DNA of 64,000 nt from contig JAFSSM010000010.1 of assembly GCA_017451025.1 (NCBI GenBank), forward strand, positions 1-64,000. The letters run 5' to 3'. This stretch comes from Synergistaceae bacterium (GTDB taxonomy: Bacteria; Synergistota; Synergistia; Synergistales; Aminobacteriaceae). Every line of letters starts with the position of its first letter. Position 1 is the first letter of the stretch. A program made the translations under genes and the position numbers. Of this stretch, positions 27,530 to 36,071 are shown piece by piece. The notes under the pieces are model-generated. The model searched no databases. It saw only the letters and a program-made list of their open reading frames with translations, and had not been told where the DNA came from.

Positions 27530-27877
27530 CTAGATGTTCACTCCGGCCTTCGCAAATATATTCAGCACTTCCTTCATCGACTTGTACCCCACAGCCTGAG
27601 ATACCGTCTTGCCCGCCGCATTGCGGAATATCAGCGTAGGCACGTAACGCACGTTGTACTTCTTCGCAATGTCGGGGTTGTCCTCAAGGAATATATGCGC
27701 CGTCGTGATCTTCCCCGCATAATTTGCCTTAATCTGGCTGAAAACTTTTTCCATTTGGGCACAGGCAGGGCACGTCTTCGTCGAAAGCATAGTTACCGAA
27801 GGAAGAGCAGCCGAAGCACACGAACACAACACCATCACCAGAACCAACGCCGACATAAATCTTACACTGAGCTTCAT
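27530..27877 (-). CDS. Exported thioredoxin-fold protein (CPAC)
   Basis: About 115 residues, starting MKLSVRFMSALVLVMVLCSC with a signal peptide that may be a lipoprotein signal, cut near CSCASA. The mature part has TKTCPACAQMEKVFSQI with a CPAC redox pair and the cis-proline segment YVPTLIF, so it is a compact thioredoxin domain that would act on disulfides outside the cytoplasm. GGGAGT is upstream. ATG at 27877 gives the best spacing, but 27883 is nearly as good. It stands alone between the esterase and a divergent operon. Confidence 0.8.
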   Translation of the reverse strand: MKLSVRFMSALVLVMVLCSCASAALPSVTMLSTKTCPACAQMEKVFSQIKANYAGKITTAHIFLEDNPDIAKKYNVRYVPTLIFRNAAGKTVSQAVGYKSMKEVLNIFAKAGVNI

Positions 27878-27970
27878 TCTCATACACTCCCTCATAATTT
27901 GGATGTGCGCATTGTACAAAACTTTAGGTATTCCTCACAATACACAATAATCACGAAATTTCAATTGCGC

Positions 27971-27976
27971 TATAAT
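27971..27976 (+). promoter_or_regulatory. Candidate -10 box for the exported-protein operon
   Basis: TATAAT lies 46 bases before the first gene of the 28-34 kb operon and just after AT-rich sequence. No convincing -35. Confidence 0.45.
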
Positions 27977-28021: not shown

Positions 28022-29206
28022 ATGGACGAACAAGGAAAAATTATCAGCACCTGCGACGTAGATGAGAACCTCGCGCTCCAAATGTGGACAAGGGGCCGCA
28101 CTCCGCGCCTCTCCATCTTCAACAAGGTCAAAAATTCCCGCAAGCTGATACATATTGCGTGGACAGAAAAGCTCGACAGAACATTAACCATCAACGGCAA
28201 GAAGCCCGGCGAAACCATCACTTACGTAGTGAAGGACTTCGAACCTGCCATCGCTAAAATACTTGCAGACTTTGCGGCCAAGACAAACTTCAAGGTCAAG
28301 TTCCTGAAACTTGTGCTAGACCTCGAGAAGGCAATTAACCGCCCGGAAATCGCAAACTCTAAGGCAGACCTCGCAATGATGACCGAAGAAAAGAAGTCAG
28401 CTCTGTGGATTGCGGACTGCACCGGCGGAGACAGAAACACCGGAGTCTTCCGTCCGTTCTTTCCGCTGACCGAAAGCGAAGCGGCGGTTGCGCTCGAGGA
28501 TAAGCTCCAGATTAACGGCGTAGCGATGAAGAATTACGACGGCCTCGCGAAAACCGGAGTCCCTGCTGCCATTAAAGAAGCTAACCCTGAACGCTGGCAC
28601 AACACCGTGCGCGTAACTGCTGCGGCAATGCTTTTAGGCTTTACCTACTGCGGAGCGGACGGCACGAAAATGGCCGATGAGATTTGGGCGGAAGGCGAAA
28701 AGAAGGCTCCGACTCAAATCGGGCAGGTTGCCATGAAGGCTCCTGTGCGCAAATTCTCGTTGAGCGATGCGGGACTGATGAGACTCGGCTACAAGCTCAC
28801 GTCATATATCCGGCACTGTTACTACATTGATGATCTGGAGATTGAGTACGTCGGCGACAGCATCAAGGAACTTCAGGACGCGGGCTTCACCCGTTCGAGG
28901 CGCATCGACTTCAACACCGGGACACTCGGCGATGTTCCGTACAGGGTAACGTTCTACGAGAACGCGGAGGAGGGCATGACAGCTTTCGGGTGCAACCCCA
29001 GAATGCAGACCGCCAGGCACACCGGCGATATGGTTTTGATGCTCCCGACGGCTACGTACAAACAGGCACTCGCGAATAACACTATGGGCAATGCAGAGGA
29101 CGATTTTTACACGATAAGCCGTCTTCTTTGGGCTAAACGCTTCAAGGAGTGGTACGAAACTCTGAAGCCTTACGTCAGAAAATTTGCGGGCCTTATCGAG
29201 AAATGA
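28022..29206 (+). CDS. Unknown cytosolic protein, first gene of the exported-protein operon
   Basis: A 394-residue protein with no signal peptide or membrane span. AAGGAGA lies 12 bases before the ATG. Residues 1-60 contain an acidic start and a WTRGRTPRLSIFNKVKNSRK stretch. The rest is mixed alpha/beta with a Lys-rich region (residues ~70-130) and aromatic segments such as RHCYYIDDLEIEYVGDS. I recognise no family. The stop overlaps the next start (ATGA), so it is translationally coupled to an exported protein. It might be a cytosolic regulator or substrate-handling component of that operon. Confidence 0.75.
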   Translation: MDEQGKIISTCDVDENLALQMWTRGRTPRLSIFNKVKNSRKLIHIAWTEKLDRTLTINGKKPGETITYVVKDFEPAIAKILADFAAKTNFKVKFLKLVLDLEKAINRPEIANSKADLAMMTEEKKSALWIADCTGGDRNTGVFRPFFPLTESEAAVALEDKLQINGVAMKNYDGLAKTGVPAAIKEANPERWHNTVRVTAAAMLLGFTYCGADGTKMADEIWAEGEKKAPTQIGQVAMKAPVRKFSLSDAGLMRLGYKLTSYIRHCYYIDDLEIEYVGDSIKELQDAGFTRSRRIDFNTGTLGDVPYRVTFYENAEEGMTAFGCNPRMQTARHTGDMVLMLPTATYKQALANNTMGNAEDDFYTISRLLWAKRFKEWYETLKPYVRKFAGLIEK

Positions 29207-30249
29207 TGAAGCGTTTTGTGTGCGCAGTGTTCCTCCTGCTTCTGTTTGCGGGCACATGTTCGGCAGGGGGACAGCGCAGACTCTCGGTAGTGATATTCCC
29301 GACGATAAACTCAACGGGACTGGAAATTTGGGAGAGCAAGTATTATCCCTACAACGTGCTTGAACAGAAAATGTCGAACTACTTCGAGGAATTGTGCAAA
29401 CAGTCTCCGCTGATTGAGGCAAGAGTCCTCGACGAAGCTAACATGAACCGCTGGCTGTCGGGTTCACGGCGCGGTGATGATATGGCCGTCCAATTGGAGA
29501 TGTATTCGGCAATAATGAAGGATAAGCACGTTCTGGGCACTATGAGCACCGGCAGGGTACAGCTCAGGCTCAGGGTGTACGACTCGCGTCGCGGAGGACA
29601 GCTCGCAGTCCGTAACGTCAAGGGCACGGACAAAAGATTCACACTCGATTCTGACGAGGACGTTTACTGGTTCGACGGAGTAATAACCGGGCTGGGAGTT
29701 CCTTTCGAGAACGGGATAGACTTTTTCGGGCTGACTAAGACCGACTACAAGGGACAGAAGATGAGCCGCTTAACTTGGGCACAGTTTCAGGGCACTTCGC
29801 AGTGGCAGTCCATCAAGAACGCAATCGCTCAGGCCTACAACGAAGCGATGAATCAGGTTCGCAATGTCATCCGCAGCAATGAGCCTAACGCCCAGCTATT
29901 GGCGAACGACAATTTTTCCGCGTCGTATGAGACGGTCGGGAGAATACTTGCTCCCACTGCGACAGCTACACGCAAAAAGCGCGACTACATAATTTCGCTT
30001 GGCCGTTACGCGAACGGTGCGCTTGACGGCGTGAAAGTCGGCGAGGTTCTCGACGTGGTGAGAGCAGATACTTATGTTACGGTAGTGCCCAGTGATCCGG
30101 TTGTGGTACTGCCAAACGTAATAGGCAAGGTGAAAGTGATAAAGGTCTACGATGATAATGCGGTAGTCAGGGTAGTGAAGGACAACAAGAAAGAGCCAAT
30201 AACCTTGAAGGATATTGTTGTGAAGCACACAACTATAACGGGGAAGTGA
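29203..30249 (+). CDS. Exported protein resembling FlgT/CsgG-type outer-membrane factors
   Basis: A 348-residue protein with signal peptide MMKRFVCAVFLLLLFAGTCS. The mature N-terminus RRLSVVIFPTIN, followed by a tyrosine-rich helix and RVLDEANMNRWL, looks like the CsgG/FlgT-type periplasmic fold. The C-terminal ~70 residues (GALDGVKVGEVLDVV, then KVKVIKVYDDNAVVRVV) resemble the small beta domain at the end of FlgT-like proteins. The resemblance is by eye only. It overlaps its upstream neighbour by four bases and is six bases from the next start. Confidence 0.6.
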   Translation: MMKRFVCAVFLLLLFAGTCSAGGQRRLSVVIFPTINSTGLEIWESKYYPYNVLEQKMSNYFEELCKQSPLIEARVLDEANMNRWLSGSRRGDDMAVQLEMYSAIMKDKHVLGTMSTGRVQLRLRVYDSRRGGQLAVRNVKGTDKRFTLDSDEDVYWFDGVITGLGVPFENGIDFFGLTKTDYKGQKMSRLTWAQFQGTSQWQSIKNAIAQAYNEAMNQVRNVIRSNEPNAQLLANDNFSASYETVGRILAPTATATRKKRDYIISLGRYANGALDGVKVGEVLDVVRADTYVTVVPSDPVVVLPNVIGKVKVIKVYDDNAVVRVVKDNKKEPITLKDIVVKHTTITGK

Positions 30250-30254
30250 TAAGG

Positions 30255-31565
30255 ATGAAGAGAATTATTCTGCTTATGCTGCTGCTGGCTGTGTCGCCTG
30301 CGTTCGGTGTCGATGATGACAGTACACCGTACATGCCTTATCCCGAGACTCCTCAGGCACAGAGCGCACCGGCGAAGAAGCCTGCTCCCAAGAAGAAGGC
30401 GGCTCCCAAAAAGAAACAGCCCGCGAAGAAACCGGCCCCCAAAAAAACACCGGCGAAGAAGGCAGCTCCGGCACGTTCAAGTTCGCTCCAGAATGGTATA
30501 GCCCTGATGCAGCAGGAACGCTATGAACAGGCGAAGCCCTATTTGTTGAAGGCTATTCAGGAGAATCGCAACGACCCTAACGCTTGGTATTGGTACGGTG
30601 TTTACCACGAAAAGACCGGCGGATTCCATCAGGCACAGTATTTTTACTCGAAGGCAGTAACGATTGACCCGGCGTTTGAGCCGTTATCGCGCGTGGTGTT
30701 CTACCCTGAAGACCCGGAAAAAACTCCGCTGTGGGACCCGAAGCGTCCGGCACGAGTCTATCCCGTTGAAGTTGCGAGTACCGGAGGACTAACGACAGTC
30801 CCGGCAGGACGAAGCTCATTCCCCACTGCTCCGAATGACCCGGAACTTCCGCACGTACCTGTATACACTCCGCCAGAACCGGGTTCTTCTCCGCTCGATG
30901 GTGATGCTTGGAGTCCTGCTGTGTACGTTCCGCCCGGCCCGGATGAAGTACAAACCGAAGGCGAAATGTCCCCTGTGTATCTGCCTCCTGAACCTCAGAG
31001 CATAGTTGCACAGGTTCCTTCGCGTCAGGTGCTCGAAGTCCCGATTTACGATTACCCTGAAGGCTACGAGACAGAGTATTACGCTCCGACTTCCGACGGT
31101 ATTCTGCGGGCCGATAAGCCCCTGTACAGTCCTCCCAACCCTGGCGAAAAAGCTCCGGCAGTGCCCAAGCAGGCAAAGCAGACCGTCAAGAAGCAGACCG
31201 AAACGAAAACAGCACCGAAGGCTTCAGCGACTCGCAAGGCTTCAGTCCCGGACAGCAGGATAGTCCGCCAGACTCAGAAGCCCAAGCGCACGACAGCTAC
31301 AGCCAAGCCCGCGCAAAGCACTACTACCCGCAGGAGGCAGACAGTCTCTCAGGATGTCAGGCCGCGTTCAACGCCGCAGACTCAGCCGGCGCGTACACCG
31401 GAACCGACACGCACTCCTGAGCCGGTAACTCTGCCGCCGGAACCTGAGACCAGACAGCAGGAGAGACCGCAGTACTATCCGCCGGTAGGACAGCAGGCAC
31501 CAGACCCCGGCACAATCTCTGAGAATCCTAATCTGCCTCCGGTCGGACAGGGAAACCAGTATTGA
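30255..31565 (+). CDS. Exported TPR protein with Lys/Pro/Ala-rich and proline-rich tails
   Basis: A 436-residue protein. The signal peptide is residues 1-18. Residues ~37-75 are a KKPAPKKKAAPKK-type low-complexity basic tract, as in cell-wall or membrane spanners. Residues ~78-145 carry two TPR-like helical repeats (LQNGIALMQQERYEQAKPYL, WYWYGVYHEKTGGFHQAQYF). The remaining ~290 residues are rich in Pro, Tyr and Glu with recurring VYxPPEP units. ATG at 30255 is preferred over the GTG at 30246 because it directly follows GATAAGG. The architecture suits a periplasmic scaffold bridging envelope layers. Confidence 0.7.
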   Translation: MKRIILLMLLLAVSPAFGVDDDSTPYMPYPETPQAQSAPAKKPAPKKKAAPKKKQPAKKPAPKKTPAKKAAPARSSSLQNGIALMQQERYEQAKPYLLKAIQENRNDPNAWYWYGVYHEKTGGFHQAQYFYSKAVTIDPAFEPLSRVVFYPEDPEKTPLWDPKRPARVYPVEVASTGGLTTVPAGRSSFPTAPNDPELPHVPVYTPPEPGSSPLDGDAWSPAVYVPPGPDEVQTEGEMSPVYLPPEPQSIVAQVPSRQVLEVPIYDYPEGYETEYYAPTSDGILRADKPLYSPPNPGEKAPAVPKQAKQTVKKQTETKTAPKASATRKASVPDSRIVRQTQKPKRTTATAKPAQSTTTRRRQTVSQDVRPRSTPQTQPARTPEPTRTPEPVTLPPEPETRQQERPQYYPPVGQQAPDPGTISENPNLPPVGQGNQY

Positions 31566-31578
31566 TGAGGTGATATTC

Positions 31579-32370
31579 GTGAAGAAATTGTTTGCGTCAA
31601 TGATTTTGGTGCTTGGCCTGTGCGGATGCGCCTTGTCTGCGGATAAGGCTATTCTCGTTACTCAGCCGGCGTACCACAACATGAAGTTCTACGTGTACAA
31701 GCCCGTGAACGTCCCTAAAGACTTTTACGTTACGTTTGACGGCTACCTGGTCTACAAGAACTCTAGGGGAGTGTGGAATTACGGCAGTGCGGAGAAGAGC
31801 GGAATTGCCCGCACAGATTACGTTGTGGGCGCGGTGATTCCGTCGGTGGTCAGGCTGAAGCCATACAGCACAAAAATTTCGTCGGTCGCTCCGATTCTGG
31901 GCACTGCTCAGGCAGAAACAGGCATTTCCTCAATTCCGGCCAAGTCCCCGCGAATCGTCTACATGCCTCCTGCTTCAGGGCTTGAGCTTTATGATTCGTC
32001 CATGCTGTCGCCCAATAATCCGGACTGGACTCAGAACTCAAACTTTATGGCTCTGGGCAAATGGCAGAAGAGCATCGACAGAATCGGCGTAACTTACAGG
32101 CCGGCGATTCCGGTTGCGTGGAAGGGAGATTATCCCGAAGTGATTTACGCGTGGACGGGTCTTCAGTGGAGGCAGCTCGACGCAAAAACTGCACATGCTT
32201 CTGCGTTAAGCACTCTGCGCCGGTCAATGTATGACCTCAGCCGTTACGTCCGCAGGGTCAACGTCATGAGCTGGACTGATGATGATACTCACGTGCTCTC
32301 GCAGTATTCGGTGATGTGGGGCTATGAATGGATGGGACAGATTTTTCTGGGAAATGAGGATTGGCGATGA
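31579..32370 (+). CDS. Exported protein of unknown function, paralogue A
   Basis: A 263-residue exported protein starting at GTG 31579, placed by AGGTGAT a few bases upstream. The signal ends near LCGCALSA and may be a lipoprotein signal. The conserved core is KFYVYKPVNVPKDFYVTFDG, KNSRGVWNYG, DYVVGAVIPS, DRIGVTYRPAIPVAW and VIYAWTG, and the end has WGYEWMG. The same elements in the same order occur in the next gene, so these are tandem paralogues. No known family is recognised. It overlaps the next gene by four bases. Confidence 0.72.
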   Translation: MKKLFASMILVLGLCGCALSADKAILVTQPAYHNMKFYVYKPVNVPKDFYVTFDGYLVYKNSRGVWNYGSAEKSGIARTDYVVGAVIPSVVRLKPYSTKISSVAPILGTAQAETGISSIPAKSPRIVYMPPASGLELYDSSMLSPNNPDWTQNSNFMALGKWQKSIDRIGVTYRPAIPVAWKGDYPEVIYAWTGLQWRQLDAKTAHASALSTLRRSMYDLSRYVRRVNVMSWTDDDTHVLSQYSVMWGYEWMGQIFLGNEDWR

Positions 32371-33125
32371 AACGGAAAGTACTGCTTGCTTTTGCGCTGG
32401 CTGTGTGTGTGTGTTCGCAGGCTTCGGCAAAACGTTATATCACCGAGCCGCTGTTGGTCCCGCAGTCTCCTTACGCCGGAATGACTTTCTACGTGTACAG
32501 GCCCTACAACATGCCGCAAGACTGGTACATCACGCTTGACGGCTATCCTGTGCACAAGAACTCCGACGGAACTTGGGTGTACGGGACTTCCGAAGGTCCT
32601 AACCTCGTTCCGACGAATTACGTTGTTGGTTCAGTAGTGCCGTCGATGGCGGGGATCACTAAGTGGATTTCCGACGCGCAGATCTCGGAATTGCGGAAAC
32701 TCCCGAACGCTGAGACTATGGAAGTCCGGCAGAAGGGATATACCCGCAACCAGATGGCGCAGGGTCAGAATTACTCGACATACATTCCTGATTGGACGTT
32801 CAGCCCGACGTTTATGGCGATCGGGAACTGGAAGGGCACCGTAGACAGAATAGGCGTGCTCAACAACCCTGCAATGCCCGTTGCATGGTCCGGGAAGAAT
32901 CCTAAGGTGATTTACGCGTGGACTGGCAAGGGCTGGCACCAGATAAACGTGAAAGAATCACAATCGCCAATCTCAGCAATTATGCACGACTATGCTCTGC
33001 TGAAGAGGAGTCTGCGAGAATCCGGCTTCAAGTGGTACGAACAGGATATGCCCATACTCGCACAGCAGACGAAGGCGTGGGGATACTACTGGCTCGGTGA
33101 AATTAGTATTAAGAGAGGTGATTAG
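32367..33125 (+). CDS. Exported protein of unknown function, paralogue B
   Basis: A 252-residue protein with signal peptide MKRKVLLAFALAVCVCSQASA. It matches paralogue A in order and spacing: TFYVYRPYNMPQDWYITLDG, KNSDGTWVYG, NYVVGSVVPS, DRIGVLNNPAMPVAW, VIYAWTG and WGYYWLGE. The ATG overlaps the stop of paralogue A. Many exposed Trp and Tyr residues suggest binding of carbohydrate or another surface partner, which is only an inference. The AAA ATPase gene begins six bases later. Confidence 0.72.
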   Translation: MKRKVLLAFALAVCVCSQASAKRYITEPLLVPQSPYAGMTFYVYRPYNMPQDWYITLDGYPVHKNSDGTWVYGTSEGPNLVPTNYVVGSVVPSMAGITKWISDAQISELRKLPNAETMEVRQKGYTRNQMAQGQNYSTYIPDWTFSPTFMAIGNWKGTVDRIGVLNNPAMPVAWSGKNPKVIYAWTGKGWHQINVKESQSPISAIMHDYALLKRSLRESGFKWYEQDMPILAQQTKAWGYYWLGEISIKRGD

Positions 33126-33131
33126 CAATCT

Positions 33132-34334
33132 ATGTGTGTACTATTGGCATGTGATGCACCTGTAGACAGCCTGCTTGTTAGGCTGAGTACAGCTTTTAGC
33201 AGCAATGACGCGGTCGAGATTCACATTCTGTTCCACGAACTGATCTCCATTGCCTGCAAGAATCGCTATGCGTCCGGCAACCTCTGGCACAACTACTTGA
33301 CACACTACATGTTGAGCAACGAGAACTTCTTTTCGCTGGCGTGTGAACGCAGGGATCCGCCGCAGGGTTCATTGAGGGATGTGGCAATGCATGATTTTGG
33401 AGCGTTTATGCGATTATTCGGGCTGGATAATGAACACATGCACTACATCGACAATTTCAGTGGCAGCGAGTCCGAAAATTCTCCTGTGTGCGAGATCAGC
33501 AAGGCCATAGCGGAAGCGACAACCCCTCAGAGAATCTTTGACATAGTAACGAATTTCTACAAGAGGCACGGAACAGGAAAGTTTGCGTTTGGGCGTGCGT
33601 TCAGGCTTAAGGGAGAAGAGCTTTGCGCTGTGGAACACGTAGGGGATGTGAGATTGTCGGACATAGTGGGATATGAGCTGCAGAAGCGGGAATTGGTCGC
33701 GAACACTGAGGCATTTTTGGCGGGCCGTCCTGCAAATAACGTTCTGCTTTACGGCGACGGAGGCACAGGAAAATCCACGAGCATCAAGGCAATTTTGAAT
33801 GAGTACGCTCCTCAGGGCTTGAGGGTGATTGAGATCTACAAGCACCAGTTCCGAAATATTCTTGACCTCACGGAAAAATTGAGGGACCGCAACTACAAGT
33901 TCATACTGTTCATTGATGATCTGTCGTTCGAGGAAGGGGAAGTTGAGTACAAGTACTTGAAGGCGGTTATCGAGGGAGGAATTGAGACACGCCCGGATAA
34001 CATGCTGATATATGCGACTTCGAACCGGCGGCATATTGTGCGCGAGGTGTGGAAGGATCGCGACGACATGGAGCACAAGGGCGACATTCACAGGTCTGAC
34101 ACTGTGGAGGAGAAGTTATCGCTGGCTTCGAGGTTCGGGATAGCGATAAACTACTCGAGTCCGAGACGCGATGAGTATCACGAAATAGTTAGGACACTTT
34201 CGGAGAAGGCAGGGCTTGAGATTGAGGATAAGGAGCTTTTTGCGGGTGCTGACAGGTGGGAAATTCGGCACGGAGGAATGACCGGAAGGGCAGCACGCCA
34301 GTACGTAGATTACCTGCTAGGGATTAGGGGCTAG
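33132..34334 (+). CDS. DUF815-type AAA ATPase
   Basis: A 400-residue cytosolic ATPase. An N-terminal region of ~170 residues without clear homology is followed by an AAA core: YGDGGTGKST (Walker A, ~205-215), FILFIDDLSFEEGE (Walker B) and ATSNRRHIVRE (sensor 1). The block KAVIEGGIETRPDNMLIYATSN is characteristic of the DUF815 family, whose function is unknown. It closes the operon of exported proteins, six bases after the previous stop, so it may power assembly or quality control for them. The last four residues are encoded by a G-rich repeat (34317-34349), so the native C-terminus was probably replaced. Confidence 0.8.
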   Translation: MCVLLACDAPVDSLLVRLSTAFSSNDAVEIHILFHELISIACKNRYASGNLWHNYLTHYMLSNENFFSLACERRDPPQGSLRDVAMHDFGAFMRLFGLDNEHMHYIDNFSGSESENSPVCEISKAIAEATTPQRIFDIVTNFYKRHGTGKFAFGRAFRLKGEELCAVEHVGDVRLSDIVGYELQKRELVANTEAFLAGRPANNVLLYGDGGTGKSTSIKAILNEYAPQGLRVIEIYKHQFRNILDLTEKLRDRNYKFILFIDDLSFEEGEVEYKYLKAVIEGGIETRPDNMLIYATSNRRHIVREVWKDRDDMEHKGDIHRSDTVEEKLSLASRFGIAINYSSPRRDEYHEIVRTLSEKAGLEIEDKELFAGADRWEIRHGGMTGRAARQYVDYLLGIRG

Positions 34335-34365: not shown

Positions 34366-34393
34366 CCTCCCGCGAAAAACGGGAGGCTTTTTT
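34366..34393 (+). terminator. Terminator after the AAA ATPase operon
   Basis: CCTCCCG pairs perfectly with CGGGAGG around a 7-base loop, followed by CTTTTTTAT. The restriction gene converging from the right ends at 34392, so the same hairpin probably serves both strands. Confidence 0.9.
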
Positions 34394-35218
34394 ATGCGAA
34401 CAGTTTGCTGAAAATATCTGCTTCCAGATCTGAGATGTTGTAGAGAGTATCGAGGAAACTGAATGTTTCATGAAGGCTGTTTTTTGCGTAGAGCCAGCCT
34501 TTGCCGTCGGTTATCCACACAAAAGTGAAACCTGGAATGTTGCGTGCTTCTTCTGCGATTAGTCGGTAACTTCTGGCGGTTTCGTTGAGTTTTGAGCCGC
34601 CGCCAGTGTAGAAATTGGTCTCGATAGCGTATAAAGTGTTGGGCGTTTGTACGGTGAAATCCCAGCGTTTGTTTTGGGGAAGCGAAGATATAGGAAGCTT
34701 CAGCGAGGATGAAGGAACTTCCCGGTCGTAAGGAATGCCGGATTTCTTGAGGAAGCCCTCAACCAGATGTTCCATTTGATGGCCGCCCCTATTTTTGCGT
34801 CCGTTGGAGTTCATTCCTGCCTCAACCCCAGTAACATAATCATACAAGTGAGAGATTAGATGTTTCTCCAGCATGTCGAATAACCCTGTTTTGGCATGAA
34901 ACAAGCGTACTGTTCGGGAGTCTGAACGATCTTGTTGAAACGGTAAGTTATCGCGGCGTTTTCATCCTGACAGTATATTTCGTAACTTCTGACAGCTAGA
35001 AGTATCGGGACAGCCTTAAGGCAGCTGGGGTATTCAGCTATAAGGTGCAGGAAGTCTGCCTCTATGTTCTCAGAGTTCACCAGTGAGTTCAACGTGAAGA
35101 TTTCCGTCTTCAGCTTTTTTGCATTCTTGTAGACCTTCTCAAAGTCTACGTAATAACCATATCCGTTGATGGACTCCCTGAATGTACCTAGCCACTCATC
35201 AAAATTTCGTCTGATCAT
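34392..35218 (-). pseudogene. DpnII-like type II restriction endonuclease, split by a frameshift
   Basis: Two overlapping frames together match a DpnII-type GATC endonuclease. The 5' part (35218 to about 34885, RRNFDEWLGTF, YYVDFEKVYKN) runs into a wrong-frame tail after FMPKQ. The 3' part resumes as KTGLFDMLEKHLISHLYDYV, DYVTGVEAGMNSNGRKNRGG, IETNFYTGGGSKLNETARSY and FVWITDGKGW. Adding one A to the A run near 34893 restores a single frame of ~275 residues. Either the nuclease is inactive, the A run is a phase-variation site, or this is a sequencing error. The ATG overlaps the methylase stop. Confidence 0.85.
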
Positions 35219-35985
35219 AAACTTTTCAGCCTCCTTATAGATAAATCTATGTACTCATGGCTATTGTCTATCCCTATATAACTGCGACTCAGCTTTTTAC
35301 ATGCTACCCCTGTTGTCGACGAACCGCAGAACGGATCGAGTACAAGCTCTCCTTCCTGCGTCGAGGCCAAGATTATCCGTTCAAGAATATACATCGGCTT
35401 TTGCGCAGGATGCTTCCCGTGAGTCTTTTCTGCATGTGGAGTAAGAGTTCCAGTCCAAACGTCTTTCATCTGCTTTCCTCCGTTGAGTTCCTTCATCAGA
35501 TGGTAGTTGAAGTAATGTCGAGTATTTTCGTTTTTCCGTGCCCATAATATCGTCTCTGTGCTGTGCGTAAAGTATCTGCATGAAAGATTTGGCGGCGGGT
35601 TGGTCTTCTGCCAGGTGATATTGTTGATTATCTTGAAGCCTTCCTGTTCGAGAGCCATACCTACAGAATAAATGTTGTGGAGAGTCCCTGTTACCCATAT
35701 TGTGCCGTCAGGTTTGAGAACTCTGCGGCAGAGACGAATCCACCTGCGGTTGAAGTCGTGCTTGTCTTCTAAGGTTTCTGCTTTGTCCCAGTCTCCTTTG
35801 TTCACCGATACCCTCTTTCCACCGCTACAAGAGAAGCCTCCATTGGACAGAAAATAAGGGGGGTCAGCAAAAACCATGTCCACACATTCCGGACACATAT
35901 CCTCAAGCGCAAGGAAAGCATCGTGCAGGAAGAGTGATGAACATTCATCAGCAAAGTAAGGTTGTAAAGTATAGAAATATGACAT
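35215..35985 (-). CDS. DpnA-like adenine DNA methyltransferase
   Basis: A 256-residue DNA methyltransferase. The catalytic DPPYFLSNGG motif comes first and the SAM-binding DPFCGSSTTGVA motif near the C-terminus, the beta-class order shared with DpnA. Together with the DpnII-like nuclease this predicts methylation of the adenine in GATC. ATG at 35985 follows GGAG by six bases; a GTG 12 bases earlier overlaps that ribosome site. Its stop overlaps the nuclease start (ATGA). DpnII systems often have a second, Dam-like methylase; none is present here. Confidence 0.85.
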   Translation of the reverse strand: MSYFYTLQPYFADECSSLFLHDAFLALEDMCPECVDMVFADPPYFLSNGGFSCSGGKRVSVNKGDWDKAETLEDKHDFNRRWIRLCRRVLKPDGTIWVTGTLHNIYSVGMALEQEGFKIINNITWQKTNPPPNLSCRYFTHSTETILWARKNENTRHYFNYHLMKELNGGKQMKDVWTGTLTPHAEKTHGKHPAQKPMYILERIILASTQEGELVLDPFCGSSTTGVACKKLSRSYIGIDNSHEYIDLSIRRLKSL

Positions 35986-36071
35986 ACGAATCTCCACATA
36001 AAAATTTTATGAATGATCTTAGCAACTGATATCGCAATGTCCATAAGCCAATTTTACAGAAACAAAGAAAT

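Follow-up and report, generated by a model that had tools for sequence, protein, structure and literature searches.

What is the function of the tightly packed gene run at positions 28022 to 34334 of this Synergistaceae DNA, and do all of its genes belong to one unit? The window, that is, the whole stretch of 64,000 nucleotides that was analysed, corresponds to contig 57 of a 2.35-Mb genome. It was found that six consecutive ORFs lie on the plus strand in this region, with a spacing ranging from −4 nt (a 4-nt overlap) to +13 nt. A preliminary description of the locus had rightly pointed out the close packing, while its count of seven genes was one too many, as no seventh ORF was found. The features are as follows.

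27966..27976, plus strand: promoter-like TGCGCTATAAT, upstream of g1
28022..29206, plus strand: g1, cytosolic 394-aa protein without a Pfam family
29203..30249, plus strand: g2, exported FlgT_C-domain protein
30255..31565, plus strand: g3, exported TPR protein with Lys-Pro and Pro-rich stretches
31579..32370, plus strand: g4, exported; g4/g5 family, Synergistota-specific as far as searched
32367..33125, plus strand: g5, g4 paralogue, the more widely conserved of the two
33132..34334, plus strand: g6, DUF815 AAA ATPase, probably a genus-level passenger
34366..34392, plus strand: intrinsic terminator at the operon end (terminator prediction; fold z-score −4.84)

The operon has well-marked ends, with a promoter-like site that is conserved at one and a strong terminator at the other. 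Of 13 same-genus genomes, 11 have the sequence GCGNTATAAT ahead of g1 (window position 27966-27976). This site gave no score in a generic sigma-70 scan, and a search for sigma-28 promoters before g1 or g2 yielded scattered, non-conserved matches only, none of which stands out. N-terminal hydrophobic export signals were read from the sequences of g2, g3, g4, and g5, and none from g1 and g6. Most of the products are therefore exported, as the envelope location given in the preliminary description implied.

The neighbouring genes lie on the minus strand. A periplasmic thioredoxin-like gene (window 27530-27880) is divergent from g1, and the two are also paired in some other genera, where a CcdA-like gene accompanies them, as judged by eye. 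On the other side, a DpnII-like restriction-modification pair was recognised by eye at 34392-35997. Its DNA methyltransferase gene (35215-35997) lies beside an endonuclease-like frame that is broken into two overlapping ORFs (34392-34904 and 34856-35218).

The conserved exported core

Is the gene order conserved in relatives, a check that the preliminary description had called for? It was revealed that g2-g3-g5 or g2-g3 are kept together in other genera and families, while g1 and g6 are found elsewhere or are absent there. The g2-g3 adjacency extends across six families, of which f11 (L182) is a distant one. Three genomes of family f8 encode beside g2 a single chain that combines the TPR protein with the C-terminal domain of g4/g5, with E-values of 1.9e-29 to 3.2e-32 against the g4/g5 profile (set of 14 proteins). 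In another genome (G004), a TPR protein adjoining g2 carries FlgT_C (E 9.2e-4). These two kinds of fusion speak for a joint action of g2, g3, and g4/g5, and a conserved gene order indicates a real unit. The ancient unit is g2-g3-g4/g5, all members of which are exported.

The g2 product had been described as a FlgT/CsgG-like exported protein. A C-terminal FlgT_C domain was found in all 27 of the g2 family members scanned with Pfam (best E 1.8e-12), and none of the 27 matched the CsgG domain, so that only the FlgT half of this description and the export signal can be retained. The window g2 alone scores 25 bits against FlgT_C, for which the cut-off is 27; in the genome search, it reaches 27.8 bits, above the cut-off. 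The FlgT_N and FlgT_M domains were unmatched in the same 27 members. A sequence-profile search of PDB with g2 returned nothing at E < 0.1, and FlgT was not recovered. As for g3, TPR_2 was matched with 32.1 bits (cut-off 27) in two stretches, and the exported TPR protein with Lys-Pro and Pro-rich spanners was thus correctly recognised from the beginning.

The two tandem exported paralogues of the preliminary description are also real; g4 and g5 are 38% identical to each other. Their family has no Pfam match. It has conserved N-terminal and C-terminal blocks rich in invariant Trp residues. A scan of 84,980 species detected 75 loci, all in Synergistota, and most of the related records bearing g4/g5 are assemblies of Synergistota from the guts of ruminants and other animals. 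The AlphaFold model of g5 is fair (pLDDT 81.5). No PDB match below E 0.1 was obtained for g5 by sequence profile, and the best hit of a structure search (Foldseek, VIA-align) has Z 3.8 over 69 residues, which is within the range of common arrangements.

The family occurs in other contexts as well. An exported M48 peptidase (E 4.9e-25) encoded in the same genome (contig C55, L043:6771-8492) has both g4/g5 domains at its C-terminal side, and its tail ends in QWDVD. In addition, several Synergistota have a second, secreted g4/g5 branch (loci L164, L166-L170, and L172-L177) with Gly/Asn-rich tails, many of which end in WDVD or WDK.

The cytosolic g1 protein has no convincing Pfam family, as judged from a scan of 33 members. 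Its AlphaFold model is confident (mean pLDDT 91.6). A sequence-profile search of PDB gave no match with E < 0.1, and the best structural match (Foldseek, VIA-align; Z 6.1 over 64 residues) is within the range of common arrangements. Such weak or missing structural matches of g1 and g5 do not by themselves demonstrate a new fold. PADLOC gave no defence-system match for g1, g2, g4, g5, or g6. In family f8, g1 is directly followed by the gene of a conserved protein that reaches about 600 aa in length (L054, L058, L059, and L060); one member was scanned and had no Pfam match.

Distribution of the families with flagella

The search for g4, g1, g2, DUF815, FlgH, FlhA, and secretin covered 188 Synergistota genomes. 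A genome was regarded as flagellated if FlgH or FlhA was found; the presence lists were compiled by hand from the search results, with sizes that match the tallies for all sets but DUF815, and many of the genomes are incomplete. The g1 and g2 searches covered Synergistota, and only g4/g5 was scanned across the 84,980 species. FlgH or FlhA was found in 114 of the 116 genomes bearing g1, 121 of the 123 bearing g2, and 104 of the 106 bearing g4/g5. The exceptions are the same two genomes for all three families (G059 and G142), which are 64-65% complete. Conversely, g1, g2, and g4/g5 are all absent from 50 of the 52 genomes without FlgH and FlhA. When the genomes were collapsed to 63 genera, without a species tree, the association gave p-values of 3.6e-7 (g1), 4e-9 (g2), and 6.6e-6 (g4/g5).

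Sister species show the same pattern. The finished genome G030 has no flagellar markers and no g1, g2, or g4/g5, while flagella, g1, and g2 are all present in its sister species G031 and G032. Likewise, G028 lacks them in contrast to four flagellated congeners (G025, G026, G027, and G029). Some flagellated genomes are without g2 (15 genomes), g1 (22), or g4/g5 (32). Thus, not every flagellum depends on the set. Since the exported families are found almost only in flagellated Synergistota species, they are probably accessory parts of the flagellum at its passage through the cell envelope.

Two other leads were rejected. A secretin-based system was considered as a partner of the core; secretin, which served as a control, is near-universal (177 of 188 genomes) and unlinked. 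In Fretibacterium fastidiosum, FlhA appears beside the core; this adjacency is not taken as evidence because the stretch contains long runs of N, that is, scaffold joins. No adjacency of family members to flagellar genes was found elsewhere.

Does the ATPase follow the same distribution? The cytosolic DUF815 AAA ATPase named in the preliminary description is beyond doubt as an assignment: g6 matches nearly the whole domain (PF05673) with E 1.5e-89 and 299.9 bits (cut-off 23.8), it has no export signal, and its translation contains the P-loop GDGGTGKS. Counting strong, full-family matches only, DUF815 and the flagellar markers gave an odds ratio of 0.94 in the 188 genomes, and by genus, the link with flagella is weakly negative (p 0.012). 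Within the genus, the distance of g6 from g5 is at most 3 kb in 33 of 43 members; g6 lies elsewhere in 7 and at an unresolved place in 3, as compared by eye. In G085 and G086, two genomes of the same genus, g5 is separated from the DUF815 gene by a gene that, by eye, resembles a type I restriction specificity subunit (L085:12019-13233 and L086:5936-7141). A literature search on DUF815 gave two mentions, both made in passing.

It had been proposed that all six products build an envelope-assembly or secretion machine driven by the ATPase. The presence of the AAA ATPase in the operon in those 33 members fits such a machine. However, the DUF815 gene is missing from most genera that have the core and is present in relatives without flagellar markers and in relatives without the core, and g1 as well as g6 lie elsewhere outside the genus. 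The ATPase is not conserved with the exported parts, while the core tracks flagella and g2 has FlgT_C. A machine of this kind is therefore very improbable. Rather, g6 is probably a genus-level passenger outside the module, which joined the operon within this genus.

Possible roles of the exported proteins

By analogy with Vibrio FlgT and the TPR proteins of other motors, I propose that the flagellum of Synergistota has accessory parts made of the exported g2, g3, and g4/g5 proteins; g1 would be their partner in the cytosol, and g6 a passenger. This reading is rather likely on the basis of the comparative analysis. The three exported components would most likely form a periplasmic or outer-membrane ring, collar, or anchor around the basal body. 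The g2 protein may be a FlgT-like ring part, g3 a TPR scaffold with extended Pro-rich arms, and g4/g5 may supply Trp-rich domains attached to that scaffold, while g1, whose phylogenetic distribution is the same, would act in the cytosol and probably help to assemble or regulate the flagellum. Gene order, domains, fusions, and co-occurrence with flagellar genes were observed directly, and from them I infer that the proteins sit at the motor, form a complex with the shape of a ring, and affect motility. In its more specific form, an undescribed envelope ring or collar of Synergistota made of a FlgT_C protein, a Pro-armed TPR scaffold, and a new Trp-rich family, together with g1 as a new cytosolic flagellar factor, the proposal is a tentative one, somewhat short of even chances.

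Co-occurrence is expected both for motor parts and for genes that go with a motile lifestyle, and cannot tell the two apart. The proteins could instead be envelope or surface proteins, for example for wall or outer-membrane maintenance or adhesion, which are kept and lost with flagella and work outside the motor. The lack of adjacency to flagellar genes, the flagellated genomes without these genes, and the g4/g5 domain in the M48 peptidase and in the second secreted branch agree with this explanation; FlgT_C in all g2 members and the tight co-losses between sister species speak against it, and I regard it as unlikely. It is less probable still that they are chaperones or quality-control factors that help to assemble flagellar rings in the envelope and leave no lasting structural part. 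The TPR scaffold, the M48 peptidase with the g4/g5 domain in the same genome, and the divergent thioredoxin gene adjoining g1 would suit this role, but the M48 protein is encoded elsewhere, and the FlgT of Vibrio is structural (PMC6504787).

For flagellar accessory proteins, as favoured here, the co-occurrence suggests functions for g1 and g4/g5, two families absent from Pfam. Synergistota is a phylum with two membranes, and literature searches returned no study of its flagellar motor. The predicted lineage-specific accessory structure is directly testable in cultivable motile members.

Comparison with FlgT, DUF815, and TPR motor proteins

In Vibrio, FlgT is a part of the H ring together with FlgO and FlgP; FlgT is needed to anchor the flagellum and for its passage through the outer membrane (PMC6504787, PMC7693769). 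Like Vibrio FlgT, g2 is exported, has FlgT_C, and tracks flagella, mostly alongside the L-ring protein FlgH. The proposed accessory proteins may work like FlgT-type accessories. In contrast to the Vibrio H ring, FlgT_N and FlgT_M are unmatched in g2, and a search of this genome up to E 1 recovered neither FlgO nor LPP20/FlgP; full membership of a Vibrio-type H ring therefore fails. A further difference from Vibrio FlgT lies in the partners to which g2 is linked instead, namely a TPR protein and the g4/g5 family. The references of PMC13023049 name a distant homologue of FlgT in Rhodobacter sphaeroides, with MotB and FliL as its interaction partners. Compared with DUF815 ATPases, g6 is a clear member with nothing distinctive, and it is distributed independently of the exported module.

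TPR proteins are known in other flagellar motors, namely MotC, MotK, and a Borrelia TPR protein (PMC13023049). Compared at the generic TPR level, g3 has in common with them that it is a flagellum-linked TPR protein. Unlike these motor proteins, g3 bears Lys-Pro and Pro-rich arms, and fusions to the g4/g5 domain occur among its relatives.
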